In this document: one piece after another, positions 1,299-9,959 of the stretch
Position numbering within the stretch: the stretch's first letter is position 1
How the letters are laid out: the number at the start of each line of letters is the position of its first letter
DNA from: Thermoleophilia bacterium
GTDB lineage: Bacteria; Actinomycetota; Thermoleophilia; BMS3ABIN01
Assembly (NCBI GenBank): GCA_016650015.1
Contig: JAENWV010000003.1
Location: 1-39,709 of the forward strand
Direction: 5' to 3'
Length of the DNA: 39,709 nt
Notes under the pieces: model-generated
What the model saw: the letters and a program-made list of their open reading frames with translations, nothing else
What the model was told of the DNA's origin: nothing
Database searches by the model: none
Translations under genes and position numbers: made by a program

Positions 1299-1889
1299 AT
1301 GGCAAATACGGAAGAAACAGTGGTGAGAATGAACTTGCTTCGCAGACATAAGCAAACCGCTGGCGCGATGGCAGCGGACATCACCTCTCAGTTCGATGAA
1401 GTCTATCGTGCTTACCTGAGGCCAGTATATGCCTTCGTTGCATTCCGGGTCGGCAATCGTGCCGCCGCGGAGGATATCACCGCTCAGGTGTTCGAGAAGG
1501 CCTGGCGCGGTTATCCCAGGTTCGACCCGCGCAAGGCGGCGATATCAACCTGGCTGTTCACGATAGCCAGAAACAGCCTGACCGACCACTATCGCAGCGC
1601 CGGCAGAAAAACCGATGAAGTCGAGCTTCCCGATGATCTGGGCGCCGGGGCTGAATCAGACCCCGTTCCCCGGCTTGAAGCCCTGGAGCTGCGGCGCGAG
1701 CTTAATGCGGCGCTTACCAGCCTGGAACCGCGGGAGCTGGAGATCGTGTCACTGAAATTCGGTGGCGCCATGACGAACCGCGACATCAGCACACTCTTGC
1801 AGATTTCTGAATCCAATGTTGGCACCATCCTCTACCGGTCTCTCAAGAAAATGAAAACCCGAATTGAGGGCGGGATCAAAAATGACTGA
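1299..1889 (+). CDS. ECF-type RNA polymerase sigma-70 family factor
   Basis: Region 2 (YRAYLRPVYAFVAFRVGNRAAAEDITAQVFEKAW...STWLFTIARNSLTDHYR) and region 4 (LTSLEPRELEIVSLKFGGAMTNRDISTLLQISESNVGTILYRSLKKMK). Confidence 0.93.
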   Translation: MANTEETVVRMNLLRRHKQTAGAMAADITSQFDEVYRAYLRPVYAFVAFRVGNRAAAEDITAQVFEKAWRGYPRFDPRKAAISTWLFTIARNSLTDHYRSAGRKTDEVELPDDLGAGAESDPVPRLEALELRRELNAALTSLEPRELEIVSLKFGGAMTNRDISTLLQISESNVGTILYRSLKKMKTRIEGGIKND

Positions 1890-3204
1890 TGACAGAGAAC
1901 AACAGGAACTAATTGACCTGATCGAACGGCTGCTCGCCGGCGAAACCGTCGCAGCGGCAGGCGATCGCGAGGAAGAACTGGAAAAGCTTCTGGCTATCGC
2001 GGCGGAACTCAATGAGCGAAGGCCGGAACCGTCAGCTGAGTTCGAGGAAAGGCTCGAAGCCAGGATGGCTGGGTTGAAAACCGCTACGGCCGTAACGAGC
2101 GATGATACTGCAGACGCGTCCCCCGGAGACGGCGTTGCGGCTCCCGGTGCGGCAACCGGAACGTCAATCGACGAGAAGAGCTGGTTGCGTGCATGGCTCT
2201 CCATGCCGCGGCTTGCCGCCGTGGCGGCCGCGCTGGTCATCGGGCTCGGCGTGGTCGGCATGGGCGGAGCCATTATCCGTGGCGGCTACCAGGGCAAAAC
2301 AGCTACTGTATCAGATGTGGCCAGCGATACCGGGACCCCTGCTGATGACGTAAAGACCCTGGAAAATGCCACGGGGCAGTCGGCTGCCGGGCGCTCCGGG
2401 GAAATCGCCGCCGGCGACACCGCGGGTTATGCCGGTTCGCCCCCCGGTGGTTCCGCCGACTCGGGCAGCACCGCAGGCATATCCGGGGTAGATACCGTGA
2501 CGCCGCTGCCTTCCACCCAGCGAATCATCCAGAGCGCCGACTACCAGGTCGAGGTGGCGCAGGGTGAATTCAACGACAAGTACTCGCAGATTTCGGCTAT
2601 CGCCGCGAAGTATGGCGGTTATGTGGTATCCGGCGATACGCGCTCCAGCGGCGATGAGCTCAAGCGTGGCAGCATCACCATCCGCGTCGCCAGCGGCAAC
2701 GACAACTTCACCAAGGCCCAGGCCGATCTCGAGGGACTCGGCAACGTGACCTCCAGGAAAGTATCCGGCCAGGATGTCACCGAAGAATACGTGGACCTGC
2801 AAAGCCGGCTGCGTAACGCCGAGGCCCAGGAAACCCAGATGCTGGAGCTGATGAAAAGGGCGCAGACCATCGAGGAGATACTTACGGTGCAGTCGCGCCT
2901 GGCGGAGATCCAGTCCCAGATCGAGCAGATCAAGGGCCGCATGAAATACACGGAGTCACGCACTGACTTCGCCACCATCACTGTGGACCTGCGCGAGACG
3001 AAGGAAGGAGTCAGCGAGACTGAGAGCGTTGGCACCAACTGGGGTTTCATCGACTCGCTAAAATACGCCGGCTGGCTGGCGGTTCAGACGCTGAACTTCG
3101 TCATCGTAGCGCTTGCGGTTATCGTTCCGCTGACCTTTATGGGCGGCGGTCTGGCTATTCTGTTCTACCGCCTGGCACAATGGCGGCGGAACCGAAACAA
3201 GTAG
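1882..3204 (+). CDS. DUF4349 domain-containing transmembrane protein, candidate cognate anti-sigma factor
   Basis: ATG at 1882 overlaps the sigma gene stop (ATGACTGA). Cytoplasmic acidic N-terminus, central TM (LAAVAAALVIGLGVVGMGGAII), DUF4349 pattern (RIIQSADYQVEVAQGEF...YGGYVVSGDTRSS...YVDLQSRLRNAEAQETQMLELMKRAQTIEEILTVQSRLAEIQSQIEQIKGRMKY) and C-terminal TM. Confidence 0.85.
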   Translation: MTDDREQQELIDLIERLLAGETVAAAGDREEELEKLLAIAAELNERRPEPSAEFEERLEARMAGLKTATAVTSDDTADASPGDGVAAPGAATGTSIDEKSWLRAWLSMPRLAAVAAALVIGLGVVGMGGAIIRGGYQGKTATVSDVASDTGTPADDVKTLENATGQSAAGRSGEIAAGDTAGYAGSPPGGSADSGSTAGISGVDTVTPLPSTQRIIQSADYQVEVAQGEFNDKYSQISAIAAKYGGYVVSGDTRSSGDELKRGSITIRVASGNDNFTKAQADLEGLGNVTSRKVSGQDVTEEYVDLQSRLRNAEAQETQMLELMKRAQTIEEILTVQSRLAEIQSQIEQIKGRMKYTESRTDFATITVDLRETKEGVSETESVGTNWGFIDSLKYAGWLAVQTLNFVIVALAVIVPLTFMGGGLAILFYRLAQWRRNRNK

Positions 3205-3518: not shown

Positions 3519-5633
3519 ATGATAACTCTGTTTGGCCTGCTTTCGCTGGCATCGACTGGCATCGCCTTGATTATGGGGACCCTGGTGATCTCCCGGAATC
3601 ATCGGGAACCGGTCAACCGGATCTTCTTTGCCCTATGCCTGGCGATCGCCTACTGGTCCTTTACCAAGTATGAGCACCGCATAGCCGGCGAATATGACGA
3701 AGCCCTTTTCTGGATCCACATATCGTTCGTCTGGGCGCTGCCCAGCGCCATGCTGCTGCACTTCGTCCTGGTCTATACAGGCAACGAGCGTTTTCTCCAG
3801 AAGAAATGGCCCTTCATGCTGCTGTATGGCCCGTCGGTGATCATCGCGGTTCTGACTATCGTCAGCGATGACTATTCCGGGCTACCCAAGATGAGACCGT
3901 GGGGCTGGTCCATCGAACCTCTGCATGGCCGCCTCACTATCTTTAGCTATTTTTACATATCTTTACTCACCTTTTCAGCGTTGCTGATCTGCTTGCGCTT
4001 TTTTTTGAAACAGGATGATCCTCGAAAGCGAATTCAGTCAGGTCTTACGCTTGCCGGCATCAGTGTCTATGCCATAGCTCCGGCACTGAGTTACATCCTG
4101 CTGCCGTTGCTCAAAATAAGAATCCCCGATATCAGCTCTGTCACCTTCGCAGTGGGGGTCGGCGGCATCATCGGCTACGGGATCTGGAAGTACGATCTGC
4201 TCTCGATGACCCCTGCCGACGCCGCCGAAAAAATCATCTCAACAATGTCCGACGCTTTGCTGCTGATTGGCACCAGTGGCGAAATCAAGAATATCAACAA
4301 CGCGGCCCTGGACCTTCTCGGCTACGAACAGGCAGAAATCCTGGGCATGTCGGCGGAAAAAATCTTTCCCGATGGCTGGCTGAAGGAATGCATCCTCAGC
4401 CGCGAGGGAACCAGCGGCAGCATCGAGGGCGTCAGCGAAATCGAAACAATCGTTCTGACCAGGTCGGGCGAGAAAACGCCGGTCTCCCTTTCCAGCTCCA
4501 AACTTCATAACCAGCGCAAACAGCTGGTCGGAACCGTCTGTATCGCCCGCAATATCAGCGAGCGCAAACGCGCCGAGGACCTGATCAAAATGCAGAGCGA
4601 AGGTCTGATTTCCAGAAACGCCGAGCTGACGGCGCTTTACGAGATCTCAAACGTAGTCCGCAACAGCCTTGACCTTGACCTGATGCTGCGGCAGGCGCTG
4701 GACACGATAACCAGCCTGTCTGTATTCAACATCGAGTATAAGGGTGGCATTTTCACGGTCGAGGGCGAAACGCTGCGACTGTTGGCGAGTCTGCATCATG
4801 CAGATAATTTCCTGCGGGCCCATGATGGAATAAAGCTTGGTGACTGCCTCTGCGGCCAGGCGGCCCGAAGCGGCGAGATCATCGTATCATTGAATGCCCG
4901 GGAGGAAGACAGGCATACGAAAGATTATCCTGAAATCAGTGATCACGGGCATGTGATCGTACCGCTCAAAGCCATGGAAAAAGTCACCGGTGTCCTCTAT
5001 CTTTATCTGCCGGCGAACGCTGAAATCGATAATCGGCAGCTTAAGCTGCTGGAGACGATCGCTGCCGAGCTGGGCATCGCCATCGAGAACGCCCGCCTCT
5101 ACACAGAGACCCGGACCTTGTCGCTACACGACCCGCTGACCGGCCTCGCCAACCGGCGACTGATGGCGCTGGAGCTGGACAAGGCCCTCGCGCGCGCCAA
5201 GCGCACGGGCAAGCCCTTCTCGCTGGTCATGGCGGATATCGACCTTTTCAAAAACTACAACGACCTCTACGGGCATGCAGCCGGCGACGAAATTCTGGCC
5301 GGGATAGCAAAATTGATACTTGAAGAAATTCGCCGCATCGATCTTGGGGCGCGCTTTGGCGGCGAGGAATTTCTACTGATACTACCGGACACGGACCTGG
5401 ATGAAGCTGTCGAGGTCGCTGAACGCATACGCTGTAAGGCTGCCGCAACCGAGTTCACCTGCTCCGCAACCTTGAAAACATCCGGCATCACGATCAGTCT
5501 GGGTGTAGCGACCTGGGACGACAGTATCGGCAGCGAAGACATATTGGTCGCCAGGGCCGATACGGCGCTATACATGGCGAAAAACAAGGGTCGAAACCGG
5601 GTTGAGAGCTGGAAGCGGATGAACATAACCTGA
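3519..5633 (+). CDS. Membrane diguanylate cyclase: 7TM sensor (histidine kinase N-terminal 7TM type)-PAS-GAF-GGDEF
   Basis: Multiple N-terminal TM segments; PAS-like segment around IISTMSDALLLIGTSGEIKNINNAALDLLGYEQAEILGMSAEKIFP; GAF region; C-terminal GGDEF with intact RFGGEEF and RRID (RxxD I-site) five residues upstream. Confidence 0.92.
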   Translation: MITLFGLLSLASTGIALIMGTLVISRNHREPVNRIFFALCLAIAYWSFTKYEHRIAGEYDEALFWIHISFVWALPSAMLLHFVLVYTGNERFLQKKWPFMLLYGPSVIIAVLTIVSDDYSGLPKMRPWGWSIEPLHGRLTIFSYFYISLLTFSALLICLRFFLKQDDPRKRIQSGLTLAGISVYAIAPALSYILLPLLKIRIPDISSVTFAVGVGGIIGYGIWKYDLLSMTPADAAEKIISTMSDALLLIGTSGEIKNINNAALDLLGYEQAEILGMSAEKIFPDGWLKECILSREGTSGSIEGVSEIETIVLTRSGEKTPVSLSSSKLHNQRKQLVGTVCIARNISERKRAEDLIKMQSEGLISRNAELTALYEISNVVRNSLDLDLMLRQALDTITSLSVFNIEYKGGIFTVEGETLRLLASLHHADNFLRAHDGIKLGDCLCGQAARSGEIIVSLNAREEDRHTKDYPEISDHGHVIVPLKAMEKVTGVLYLYLPANAEIDNRQLKLLETIAAELGIAIENARLYTETRTLSLHDPLTGLANRRLMALELDKALARAKRTGKPFSLVMADIDLFKNYNDLYGHAAGDEILAGIAKLILEEIRRIDLGARFGGEEFLLILPDTDLDEAVEVAERIRCKAAATEFTCSATLKTSGITISLGVATWDDSIGSEDILVARADTALYMAKNKGRNRVESWKRMNIT

Positions 5634-5683: not shown

Positions 5684-7159
5684 TCAGAATGCTGTTTCGA
5701 TAACTCCGCCGGCCATCAGGATCTGATCATCATAGATCACCGCCGACTGCCCGGGCGCGATACCGTGGACCGGCTGGTCGAGTTCCAGGCGCCATGAGCC
5801 CCGGAAGTCTTCCACAATGCGGCCGGGAACAGCCGGAGCGTTATACCTGGGCTGGATCATCAGGCTGATGCCGAGCAATTCATCGGCCGGGACGAAACTG
5901 TTTACCTGTCCGATCACCAGTGTCGACACCGCCAGCTCTGCGCGGCTTCCCGCCACCACCAGATTCTCTTCCGGAACCGTCCGCAAAACATACAGGGGTT
6001 CCGGGGCGCTGACGCCAAGACCGTGCCGCTGGCCTACCGTGTAGTCGATAAAGCCTCCGTGTGATCCAAGCCGGTCGCCAGCGGCATCGACGATATCCCC
6101 GGCTCCGGGAAGCTCCACGGCGCGACTGCGCAGGAAGCGGCGATAATCGTCGTCGGGAATGAAACAGACCTCCTGGCTCTCCGGCCGGTTGTGGGCGGCG
6201 ATTCCTGCCTCACGGGCCAGATTACGGCTGTCATCCTTGGACAATTCCCCCAGGGGGAAATCAAGCCGCTCCAGCAATGCGGGCTTGATGCCCCAAAGCA
6301 TGTATGACTGGTCCTTTGCCTGATCGGCGCCGCGGACGATCAGGCGGCCATCACCACCCGACTGCCGCAGCCGGACATAATGGCCGGTGGCCACTTGGGC
6401 GGCACCCAGCCTGTCGGCCAGAAGAATCAGCTCGTGGAAACGGAAGCGGCCATTGCAGCGCGCGCAGGGGTTAGGCGTCCGCCCGGCCATGTATTCCCCG
6501 ACGAAGTCGTCCACGACCACCGCAGCGAACGTCTCCGTGTAGTCGACCGTCAGGTGGGGCAGGCCCAGGCCATGGCAGACCTCGCGAGCGCCACGGATGG
6601 CCTCGGGAGAACAACAGCTGGGAGATTCAACATCTTCGCAGGATGGATCGCTCCAGAGGCGCATCGTGACGCCGACAACATCGCGGCCGGCGTTTCGTTC
6701 GAGCAGGCAGGCGGTGGAGCTGTCGACGCCACCGCTCATGGCGACGAGCATGCTATTTTCATGGATCTCTTTCGCCTTGGGGAAGGTGCCGCGCCCGATG
6801 GCGTCCTCCAGGGCTGCATGCAGGGACTCGACGGCGAAGAACGCGGCTTTTCGGATCGATTCGCCGCCACGTTCCGAGTCACCACTCAATGCCGCCTCTA
6901 TCGTCGCGGACGGCAAGCGAGCCGCTTCCTGCCAGCTCCTGCCGGTTATTATTTCGGTGATCAGGCTGCCGGCGGCGATGGCCGCGCTCGAACCAGATGC
7001 CTGAAAACGGGCTTCGGCCAGATTGCCGGCATCAAAGTTGATGAAAAATTTTATGACAACGCCACAGCCGGGATCGCCGGCCCCGCCACGTCCATCAGCG
7101 CCGGGAAGCTCTCCGGCGTTTCTGGGGTTATGGAAATGATCGAGGAGCAGTGATGTCAT
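5684..7159 (-). CDS. mnmA: Fusion protein: degenerate NifU/IscU-like N-terminal domain + tRNA 2-thiouridine(34) synthase MnmA
   Basis: N-terminus LLDHFHNPRNAGEL...GDPGCGVVIKFFINF...ARFQASGSSAAIAAGSLITEIITGRS aligns with IscU/NifU. C-terminal about 365 aa is MnmA: VAMSGGVDSSTACLL (PP-loop), GRTPNPCARCNGRFRF, SQEVCFIPDDDY, GQRHGLGV. Confidence 0.95.
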   Translation of the reverse strand: MTSLLLDHFHNPRNAGELPGADGRGGAGDPGCGVVIKFFINFDAGNLAEARFQASGSSAAIAAGSLITEIITGRSWQEAARLPSATIEAALSGDSERGGESIRKAAFFAVESLHAALEDAIGRGTFPKAKEIHENSMLVAMSGGVDSSTACLLERNAGRDVVGVTMRLWSDPSCEDVESPSCCSPEAIRGAREVCHGLGLPHLTVDYTETFAAVVVDDFVGEYMAGRTPNPCARCNGRFRFHELILLADRLGAAQVATGHYVRLRQSGGDGRLIVRGADQAKDQSYMLWGIKPALLERLDFPLGELSKDDSRNLAREAGIAAHNRPESQEVCFIPDDDYRRFLRSRAVELPGAGDIVDAAGDRLGSHGGFIDYTVGQRHGLGVSAPEPLYVLRTVPEENLVVAGSRAELAVSTLVIGQVNSFVPADELLGISLMIQPRYNAPAVPGRIVEDFRGSWRLELDQPVHGIAPGQSAVIYDDQILMAGGVIETAF

Positions 7160-7278: not shown

Positions 7279-7920
7279 TTACCTGACCGTGCCGGTGCCG
7301 CTCTCCGTTCTGATGCCGGTACTGGTGCCGGAGCTGCCAGTTGTATTCGTGCTGGTCCCGCCGCCACTATTACTGCTGCCGCTGCTTGAGCTGCTGCTGC
7401 CGCTGCAACTTCCCGTGGCCTCGCAAATACCCTGTTCGATCGACTTGGAATCAACAAAGCCGGACCAGGCGCGCTGCACCTGCGCCTCCTTGTTGATGAT
7501 GACGACCGTAGGCGTTGTCGAGACTTTGAGAATGATCGACAGATCGCCGAACTTCTGACCGTCCGTATAAAGGTAATCGTAGAAGTCTACCTGGCCGCGG
7601 AATTTGTTCTGCAACGACATCACCGAAGAGCGAACCTGGTTATCATCGTAAGGTCCGCTTATATAAAAGGTGACGACGATCGGCCGTCGCGATTCGATCG
7701 AGCTCTTAAAATCCTTGGGAGACAGTTCGCCAGGAGTTATGACCTGTCCGATGAGGTCTTCCGGTTTGCCGGTGCTGGCGCTTCCCGAGCCCGACTTGCT
7801 GGTTTTGGAGGTCTTGGTCGGTGTAGTGGCCGGTGCTCCCGAGTCACCACAGCCGGTAAATATAAAAGCCACAAGCGCTACTATGAGCACTGTGGCTGTA
7901 AGCTTCAGAATTTTGGTCAT
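7279..7920 (-). CDS. Thioredoxin-fold lipoprotein lacking a CxxC motif, with Ser/Gly/Thr-rich C-terminal tail
   Basis: Start at MTKILKLTATVLIVALVAFIFTGCGDSG (lipobox FTGC). Trx-like core (PIVVTFYISGPYDDNQV...STTPTVVIINKEAQVQRAWSGF) with cis-Pro-like TTP but no CxxC; tail SGSSSSSSGSSNSGGGTSTNTTGSSGTSTG. Confidence 0.7.
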   Translation of the reverse strand: MTKILKLTATVLIVALVAFIFTGCGDSGAPATTPTKTSKTSKSGSGSASTGKPEDLIGQVITPGELSPKDFKSSIESRRPIVVTFYISGPYDDNQVRSSVMSLQNKFRGQVDFYDYLYTDGQKFGDLSIILKVSTTPTVVIINKEAQVQRAWSGFVDSKSIEQGICEATGSCSGSSSSSSGSSNSGGGTSTNTTGSSGTSTGIRTESGTGTVR

Positions 7921-7943
7921 CCGCCGCCTTCTTGTTGCAAAAT

Positions 7944-8099
7944 AAAGCTCCACCTTGCCGTCTCCGCTTGTTTATTGAACCTGCTCTAGCAGGTGGGTGC
8001 CCGCTCCCCAGCTACCCTTAAGCAGTTGGGAAAGACTAAGCTCCCGTACTCAATATGTTGGCTCAATAAAGTTACGAATCACAAACAAGGTCGAGCTTT
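7944..8099 (-). ncRNA. ssrS: 6S RNA (candidate)
   Basis: About 156-nt minus-strand RNA. Closing stem 5' AAAGCUCGACCUUGU / 3' GCAAGGUGGAGCUUU. Inner stem UUUAUUGAGCC / GGUUCAAUAAA. Central bubble with a 3'-side hairpin ACCUGCUAGAGCAGGU. Apical hairpin UUUCCCAACUGCUUAAGGGUAGCUGGGGA. Primary sequence resembles 6S blocks (UGAGCC.A.AU..., CACC...GGUUCAA...GCGG..GGC). Located next to aspS, as recalled for B. subtilis 6S-1 (bsrA). Confidence 0.8.
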
Positions 8100-8104
8100 G
8101 ATTA

Positions 8105-8134
8105 ATAATATCATACGCCTTTCTTTTTCGGCAA
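8105..8134 (-). promoter_or_regulatory. Putative sigma-70 promoter of the 6S RNA candidate
   Basis: Minus strand TTGCCG (8134-8129) - 18 nt - TATTAT (8110-8105), placing the TSS about 7 nt downstream, at the first base of the closing stem (~8098-8099). Confidence 0.6.
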
Positions 8135-8210: not shown

Positions 8211-9959
8211 TTATTGCCGGATTTTGAGCTCTTTTAGCTGCCGCGGATCAACGATTGCCGGAGCGCCGGTGAGCGGACAGCCGCCACTCTGTGTCTTGGG
8301 AAATGCTATCACATCCCTGATGGTGGAAAGACCCGCCATCAGCATGACCAGGCGATCGAGGCCGAAAGCCAGCCCGCCGTGGGGCGGCGCTCCATATTTG
8401 AGAGCCTCCAGCAGGAAACCGAAATCCCGTTCCATCTGGTGGTCCTCGTGGCCGAGAATGGCGAGTATCCGCCGTTGCAGTTCCGGCTTGTGGATACGCA
8501 GACCACCGCTGGCGATCTCCACGCCGTTGAGAACCAGGTCATAGAGGCTGCCACGAACCTTGAGCGGCTCGTCCTCGAGAAAAGCGACCGTCTCCGCGCT
8601 GGGCAGTGTAAAAGGATGATGTTCGGCGACGATCTGGCCACTTTCTGCGTCCAGTTTAAACATGGGAAAATCCGTCACCCAGAGGAAGCTCCAGCCGGGC
8701 TCGACCAGTTCCAGCTCGGTGGCCAGGCGAGGCCGCAGGACGCCCAGGACCTCCACAGCCACGTCGACGGTGTCGGCGACGAAAAATACGATGTCGCCCG
8801 CTTCGGCCGCGGTTGCATCCAGGACCTGTGACAGTTCCTCCCGCGAGAGAAACTTGGCGATCGGCGACTGCACCTCCAGGCCTTCCTTGATAATCAGGTA
8901 TGCGAGCCCTTTGGCGCCATGGGAAAGCGCGAAGTCGGTATGTTCGTCTATTTCCCGGCGCGTAAAACGCCCGGCTCCTGGCGCCCGGATTGCCCGCACC
9001 GTGCCACCATCGGCTAGCGCCCGGGAAAACACGGCGAACTCCGAGCCGCGGAAGATATCGGAAGCGTCGACGATAGGAAGGCCGAAACGCAGGTCTGGTT
9101 TGTCGGAGCCGTACCTGAGAATCGCCTCGTCGTAGGTCATGACGGGGAAGGGTTTGTCGAGCGCGACGCCAAGCACTTCGTCGAAGAGAACAAGCATCAA
9201 ATCCTCGAGCAACCCCATGATCCCAGCCTCCGACATGAAGGACATCTCTATGTCCACCTGGGTGTGTTCGGGTTGCCGGTCGGCGCGCAGGTCCTCATCC
9301 CTGAACGCGTGCGCGAACTGGTAATAGCGGTCGAGCCCGGAGATCATCAGCAGTTGCTTGAAGAGCTGCGGCGACTGCGGCAGGGCGTAGAATTTTTTCG
9401 GTTGCAACCGCGACGGCACCAGGAAATCCCGGGCGCCTTCAGGCGTGCTCTTGGTGAGCACGGGTGTCTCCACCTCGGTGAAATTATTATTATCCAGAAA
9501 TTTTCGGGCGCTGCGGGAGACGCGGTGGCGCAACAGCAGGTTGTCGAGCATCTCCTCGCGGCGCAGGTCGATGTAGCGGTATTTGAGGCGCAGGTTGTCG
9601 TCCACATCGCCACGCTCCTCGACGCTGAACGGTGGCGTCTCGGAACGGTTGAGCACTTCGACGGCGGCGACGTTTATCTCGACCTCGCCGGTGGCCAGGT
9701 CCGGATTGACCGTTTCCGCCGGGCGGGGAGCCACTTTGCCCTTTATCTGGAGGACATCCTCCGGACGCAGCGAGTGGCCGATGGTATGGACTTCACCGGA
9801 ACGTTTGGGATCGAAGACGATCTGCACCAGGCCACTGACATCTCGAAGATCGACGAATATCAGCCCGCCGTGATCGCGCCGGCGATGGACCCAGCCGCAC
9901 AACGTTACGTCACGGTCGAGATCGTCCTTTTTTAGTTTTCCGCAGTAGTCGGTACGCAT
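8211..9959 (-). CDS. aspS: Aspartyl-tRNA synthetase (bacterial type, with GAD insertion)
   Basis: [51 protein letters not shown]...; class II motifs [61 protein letters not shown]. Confidence 0.98.

Follow-up and report, generated by a model that had tools for sequence, protein, structure and literature searches.

The gap that follows aspS in the window, the 39,709-nt stretch of Thermoleophilia DNA analysed here, almost certainly contains a genuine 6S RNA gene of this genome. 6S RNAs are small RNAs that mimic an open promoter and sequester RNA polymerase. The RNA in the window is an ordinary member of the known family; its interest lies in its phylum. Two papers set Actinobacteria apart as exceptional in having no 6S RNA, save for one contested Streptomyces candidate (PMC9130861, 2022; PMC11077062, 2024). 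Among 298 genomes sampled from this supposed exception phylum, roughly one in three has a canonical 6S RNA, and nearly all of these lie outside the lineages that carry WhiB or RbpA.

The RNA extends from 8099 to 7944 on the minus strand (156 nt), or about 156-157 nt from the predicted start to the end of the closing stem, which falls inside the range of 150-210 nt that 97% of known 6S RNAs occupy (PMC4191392). The Rfam model of 6S/SsrS RNA, RF00013, matches positions 8099-7943 on the minus strand over its complete length (model positions 1-187), with 79.9 bits and E = 2.4e-14 in a scan of the window; the gathering score, which is the curated cut-off for membership, is 46.4 bits. No other Rfam family reaches its curated cut-off anywhere in the window, and none besides 6S matches between 7600 and 8500 with E up to 5. 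The match is single-copy in the genome (1.9 Mb, ~85% complete). The minimum free energy of the RNA is -64.0 kcal/mol, as against -43.8 +/- 3.6 for shuffled sequences (n = 200; z = -5.59), none of which was as good. A preliminary description of this DNA had proposed a 156-nt minus-strand RNA with 6S architecture and had named a search with 6S covariance models as a check; the end-to-end match, far above the cut-off, and the z-score bear the proposal out. The gap between aspS and the downstream lipoprotein gene, which it gave as 250 bp, measures about 290 bp from the aspS stop at 8211 to the ATG at 7920.

The fold of the RNA has the 6S layout of a closing stem, a large central bubble and an apical arm (Table 1). 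The closing stem, AAAGCUC-G-ACCUUGU / GCAAGGU-G-GAGCUUU with one G-G mismatch, is present as previously drawn, as is the inner stem UUUAUUGAGCC/GGUUCAAUAAA, whose 11 pairs are identical in 19/19 family members. The hairpin described on the 3' side of the bubble also exists, in another form: it had been written as ACCUGCU-AG-AGCAGGU, and because a 2-base loop is sterically impossible, the actual hairpin is ACCUGC-UAGA-GCAGGU, with a 4-base loop and 6 pairs. The GGU at the end of its 3' arm also takes part in the upper inner stem (GAGCC/GGUUC), and the full forms of the two are consequently mutually exclusive. GAGCC is invariant in the 41 class members aligned and AACA is kept in at least 90% of them; when the window RNA is aligned with the 6S RNAs of Bacillus, Cytobacillus, Tepidibacillus and Veillonella, the blocks CCAACA, GGGAG, CACCCACCTG and ACGGCA are invariant.

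Table 1. Features of the 6S RNA locus in the window.
Feature	Position	Strand	Evidence or remark
6S RNA gene (ssrS-like)	7943..8099	-	RF00013, 79.9 bits; only copy in the genome
-35 hexamer TTGCCG	8129..8134	-	same in 19/19 family members
-10 hexamer TATTAT, preceded by TG (extended -10)	8105..8110	-	spacer 18; start expected at ~8099
Closing stem, 5' arm (AAAGCUCGACCUUGUUUGU)	8081..8099	-	fold; family and class alignments
Closing stem, 3' arm	7944..7962	-	conserved G-G mismatch; fold, alignments
Inner stem, 5' arm UUUAUUGAGCC	8060..8070	-	with the following AAC, predicted pRNA template (pRNA 5'-GUUGGCUCAAUAAA...)
Inner stem, 3' arm GGUUCAAUAAA	7971..7981	-	fold; family alignment
3'-side hairpin ACCUGC-UAGA-GCAGGU in central bubble	7979..7994	-	GGU common with inner stem
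Apical stem (GGGAGCU.../...GGCACCC) and terminal hairpin	7995..8045	-	centroid fold; covariation
U-rich tail (UUUAUUUU)	7939..7946	-	follows closing stem; may mark termination or the 3' end
aspS, upstream neighbour	8211..9959	-	Pfam tRNA-synt_2 and GAD; synteny
Thioredoxin-like lipoprotein gene, downstream neighbour	7279..7920	-	PF13848, 20.3 bits, below cut-off of 27; kept family-wide

Covariation across 41 relatives of the class, another check that had been proposed for the long stems, is found in the closing, inner and apical stems. The alignment was not structure-guided. In this set, 25 of 49 pairs have changed on both sides, and there are 176 both-side-changed cells compared with 64 +/- 8 after shuffling. 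The covariation score is 0.312, as against 0.159 for shuffled and at most 0.112 for slid controls (every control was lower), and paired cells amount to 89.2% versus 38-47% in the slid controls, over which the tested structure is favoured by having been taken from one aligned sequence. RNAalifold independently recovers the closing stem, the top of the inner stem and the apical stem; 20 of its 42 pairs are compensated. The stems are almost unvarying among the 19 family sequences; the inner stem is invariant inside the family, and the wider class is therefore the sole source of its covariation. Covariation says little about the bubble hairpin, which is 99% paired and nearly invariant.

The promoter suggested earlier for this RNA, TTGCCG-18-TATTAT, is present, and TTGCCG-N17/18-TANTAT recurs in 19/19 family members. 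These promoters sit 6-10 bases upstream of an invariant GCTCGAC (19/19), in most cases with a TG ahead of the second hexamer, and the hexamers are kept while the surrounding bases vary. We found no standard small-stem terminator by the 3' end of the RNA; only the closing stem and the U-rich tail fit, the tail having a mean of 6.7 T per 8 bases in the 19 family members.

Because the ATG of the lipoprotein gene lies only 23 nt beyond the end of the 6S RNA, leaving no space for a further promoter, the lipoprotein mRNA is probably produced by read-through from the 6S or the aspS promoter. The same spacing, the likely read-through and the retention of the RNA and lipoprotein gene as a pair throughout the family are what would be expected of a cis-acting leader of the lipoprotein gene, such as a riboswitch or attenuator, as opposed to a free-standing RNA. 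We consider a leader very improbable, since the sole Rfam match is to 6S, with no leader family matched, and since base conservation follows the 6S pattern and not that of a ligand pocket linked to the lipoprotein gene. Moreover, several class members that keep the RNA (L011, L017, L028 and L117) have no detected, or only a very divergent, lipoprotein homologue downstream of it, and the RNA also occurs with no homologue detected in Bacillota and in some other classes.

Within the family of the window's genome, the 6S RNA is found in 19/19 genomes, and the gene order aspS - 6S - thioredoxin-like lipoprotein - mnmA is constant in all of them. Fifty of 60 relatives overall have a 6S match, as do 96 of 149 genomes in a wider draw of the class. 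The match is complete at 49 class loci: aspS is directly upstream at 38, within 2 kb and non-adjacent at seven, and not found in the fetched flank at four. At loci that were fetched by aspS alone, 6S directly follows aspS in 'Actinomycetes bacterium Dive96_bin3.284' (L032) and also in Tepidibacillus, Cytobacillus, Bacillus and Veillonella. These Bacillota loci, together with the reported position of bsrA by aspS (PMC11077062), uphold an earlier likening of the window's arrangement to that of B. subtilis 6S-1. No 6S match was found among the listed genomes of one family, f7 (e.g. G028, G033, G038, G048, G058), while related families have one; it is possible that 6S has been lost or has strongly diverged there. 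Two genomes have two full-length 6S matches each, G408 (C63, C88) and G365 (C104, C95), possibly paralogues or contamination. A second 6S-like match in the relative G007 (L130, C47:3930-4000) is partial (71 nt), scores 37.6 bits, below the cut-off, and lacks the 6S neighbours; it was not counted.

Two further gene arrangements were observed in the window. The MnmA protein (5684-7159, minus strand) has an N-terminal NifU/IscU-like domain (PF01592 at residues 5-119, PF03054 from 137), a possible fusion of a sulfur or iron-sulfur scaffold with a tRNA thiolation enzyme; in many relatives the N-terminal part is matched in a comparable way. A gene for a DUF4349 protein (1864-3204, plus strand) lies upstream of, and codirectional with, one for a 7TM/PAS/GAF/GGDEF diguanylate cyclase (3519-5633).

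The competition between bubble hairpin and inner stem is predicted to form a release switch triggered by pRNA. During recovery, polymerase would take the 5' bubble strand (...UUUAUUGAGCCAAC) as template, and the short pRNA product would begin GUUGGCUCAAU.... Pairing of the pRNA would open the inner stem and free the GGU, which would complete the ACCUGC/GCAGGU hairpin, and polymerase would be let go. The sequences of template and hairpin are conserved and, with the template masked such that UUUAUUGAGCCAAC is unavailable, the hairpin reaches a mean predicted probability of 0.97 over the 19 family members, up from 0.36. By homology, the window 6S RNA would be expected to bind polymerase, to direct pRNA synthesis and to have a role in stationary phase.

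Across the phylum, 100 of the 298 genomes sampled have a 6S match, 74 of them above the gathering score. WhiB, which to our knowledge is restricted to Actinomycetota and their phages, occurs in 140 of the 298, many of them genomes of 7-10 Mb, and thereby marks the sampled phylum as Actinomycetota; it was not found in the window's own genome or in the class members listed. WhiB and 6S occur together in only four of the 298 genomes (G062, G072, G086, G312); the Fisher p of 5e-30 for their exclusion is not a fair probability because the genomes are related. RbpA is found in 29/298 genomes, of which only two, both with a partial weak match, have 6S. Across these 298 genomes, 6S on the one hand and WhiB or full-length RbpA on the other come close to mutual exclusion. 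A literature search found no paper linking 6S RNA with Coriobacteria.

The phylum is also that of the carriers of Ms1, which binds core polymerase without sigma in Mycobacterium and Streptomyces and likewise has an open-promoter-like fold (PMC4191392). That the window RNA is Ms1-like is nevertheless hardly credible. Mycobacterial Ms1 measures ~300 nt, and Ms1 carries additional hairpins (PMC9130861, PMC4191392). The window RNA, by contrast, has neither the length of about 230-300 nt nor the extra terminal hairpins of Ms1, being a 156-nt RNA that fits the 6S model end to end. Its pRNA template block is that of 6S, its neighbour aspS is that of Bacillota 6S genes, and RbpA, a companion of Ms1 lineages, was not found in its own genome or in sampled family members.

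Taking the RNA as 6S, we lean towards the view that Actinomycetota and Bacillota share an inherited, aspS-linked 6S RNA that is still used in classes without WhiB and RbpA and was lost in the lineages bearing them, its place there being taken by Ms1 or other RNAs that bind polymerase. The distribution of 6S, WhiB and RbpA is consistent with such a replacement and is no proof of it. It points to particular lineages where the timing and cause of the replacement of 6S by Ms1 can be studied, and also raises the question of whether 6S became dispensable through RbpA, a stabiliser of the holoenzyme.

B. subtilis 6S-1 (bsrA) and other Bacillota 6S RNAs share with the window RNA the RF00013 membership, the gene position after aspS and identical conserved blocks. 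The pRNA of B. subtilis starts with GU, the start expected for both the window RNA and Bacillota 6S RNAs. The window RNA, at about 156 nt, has a shorter apical arm than the matched Bacillota loci (173-190 nt), and its downstream gene encodes a thioredoxin-like lipoprotein, whereas bsrA is flanked by aspS and yrvM (PMC11077062). The predicted release logic resembles the pRNA-triggered release of E. coli and B. subtilis 6S RNAs. E. coli 6S RNA (ssrS) has the same architecture, a pRNA-triggered release hairpin and a protein gene close downstream, and differs in being longer and in its neighbours. The downstream gene in E. coli is ygfA (ssrS-ygfA). Finally, Ms1 / MTS2823 / scr3559 of Actinobacteria are alike in phylum, open-promoter-like fold and association with polymerase, and differ in their length of about 230-300 nt, their binding to core polymerase and their gene neighbours (PMC9130861, PMC4191392).
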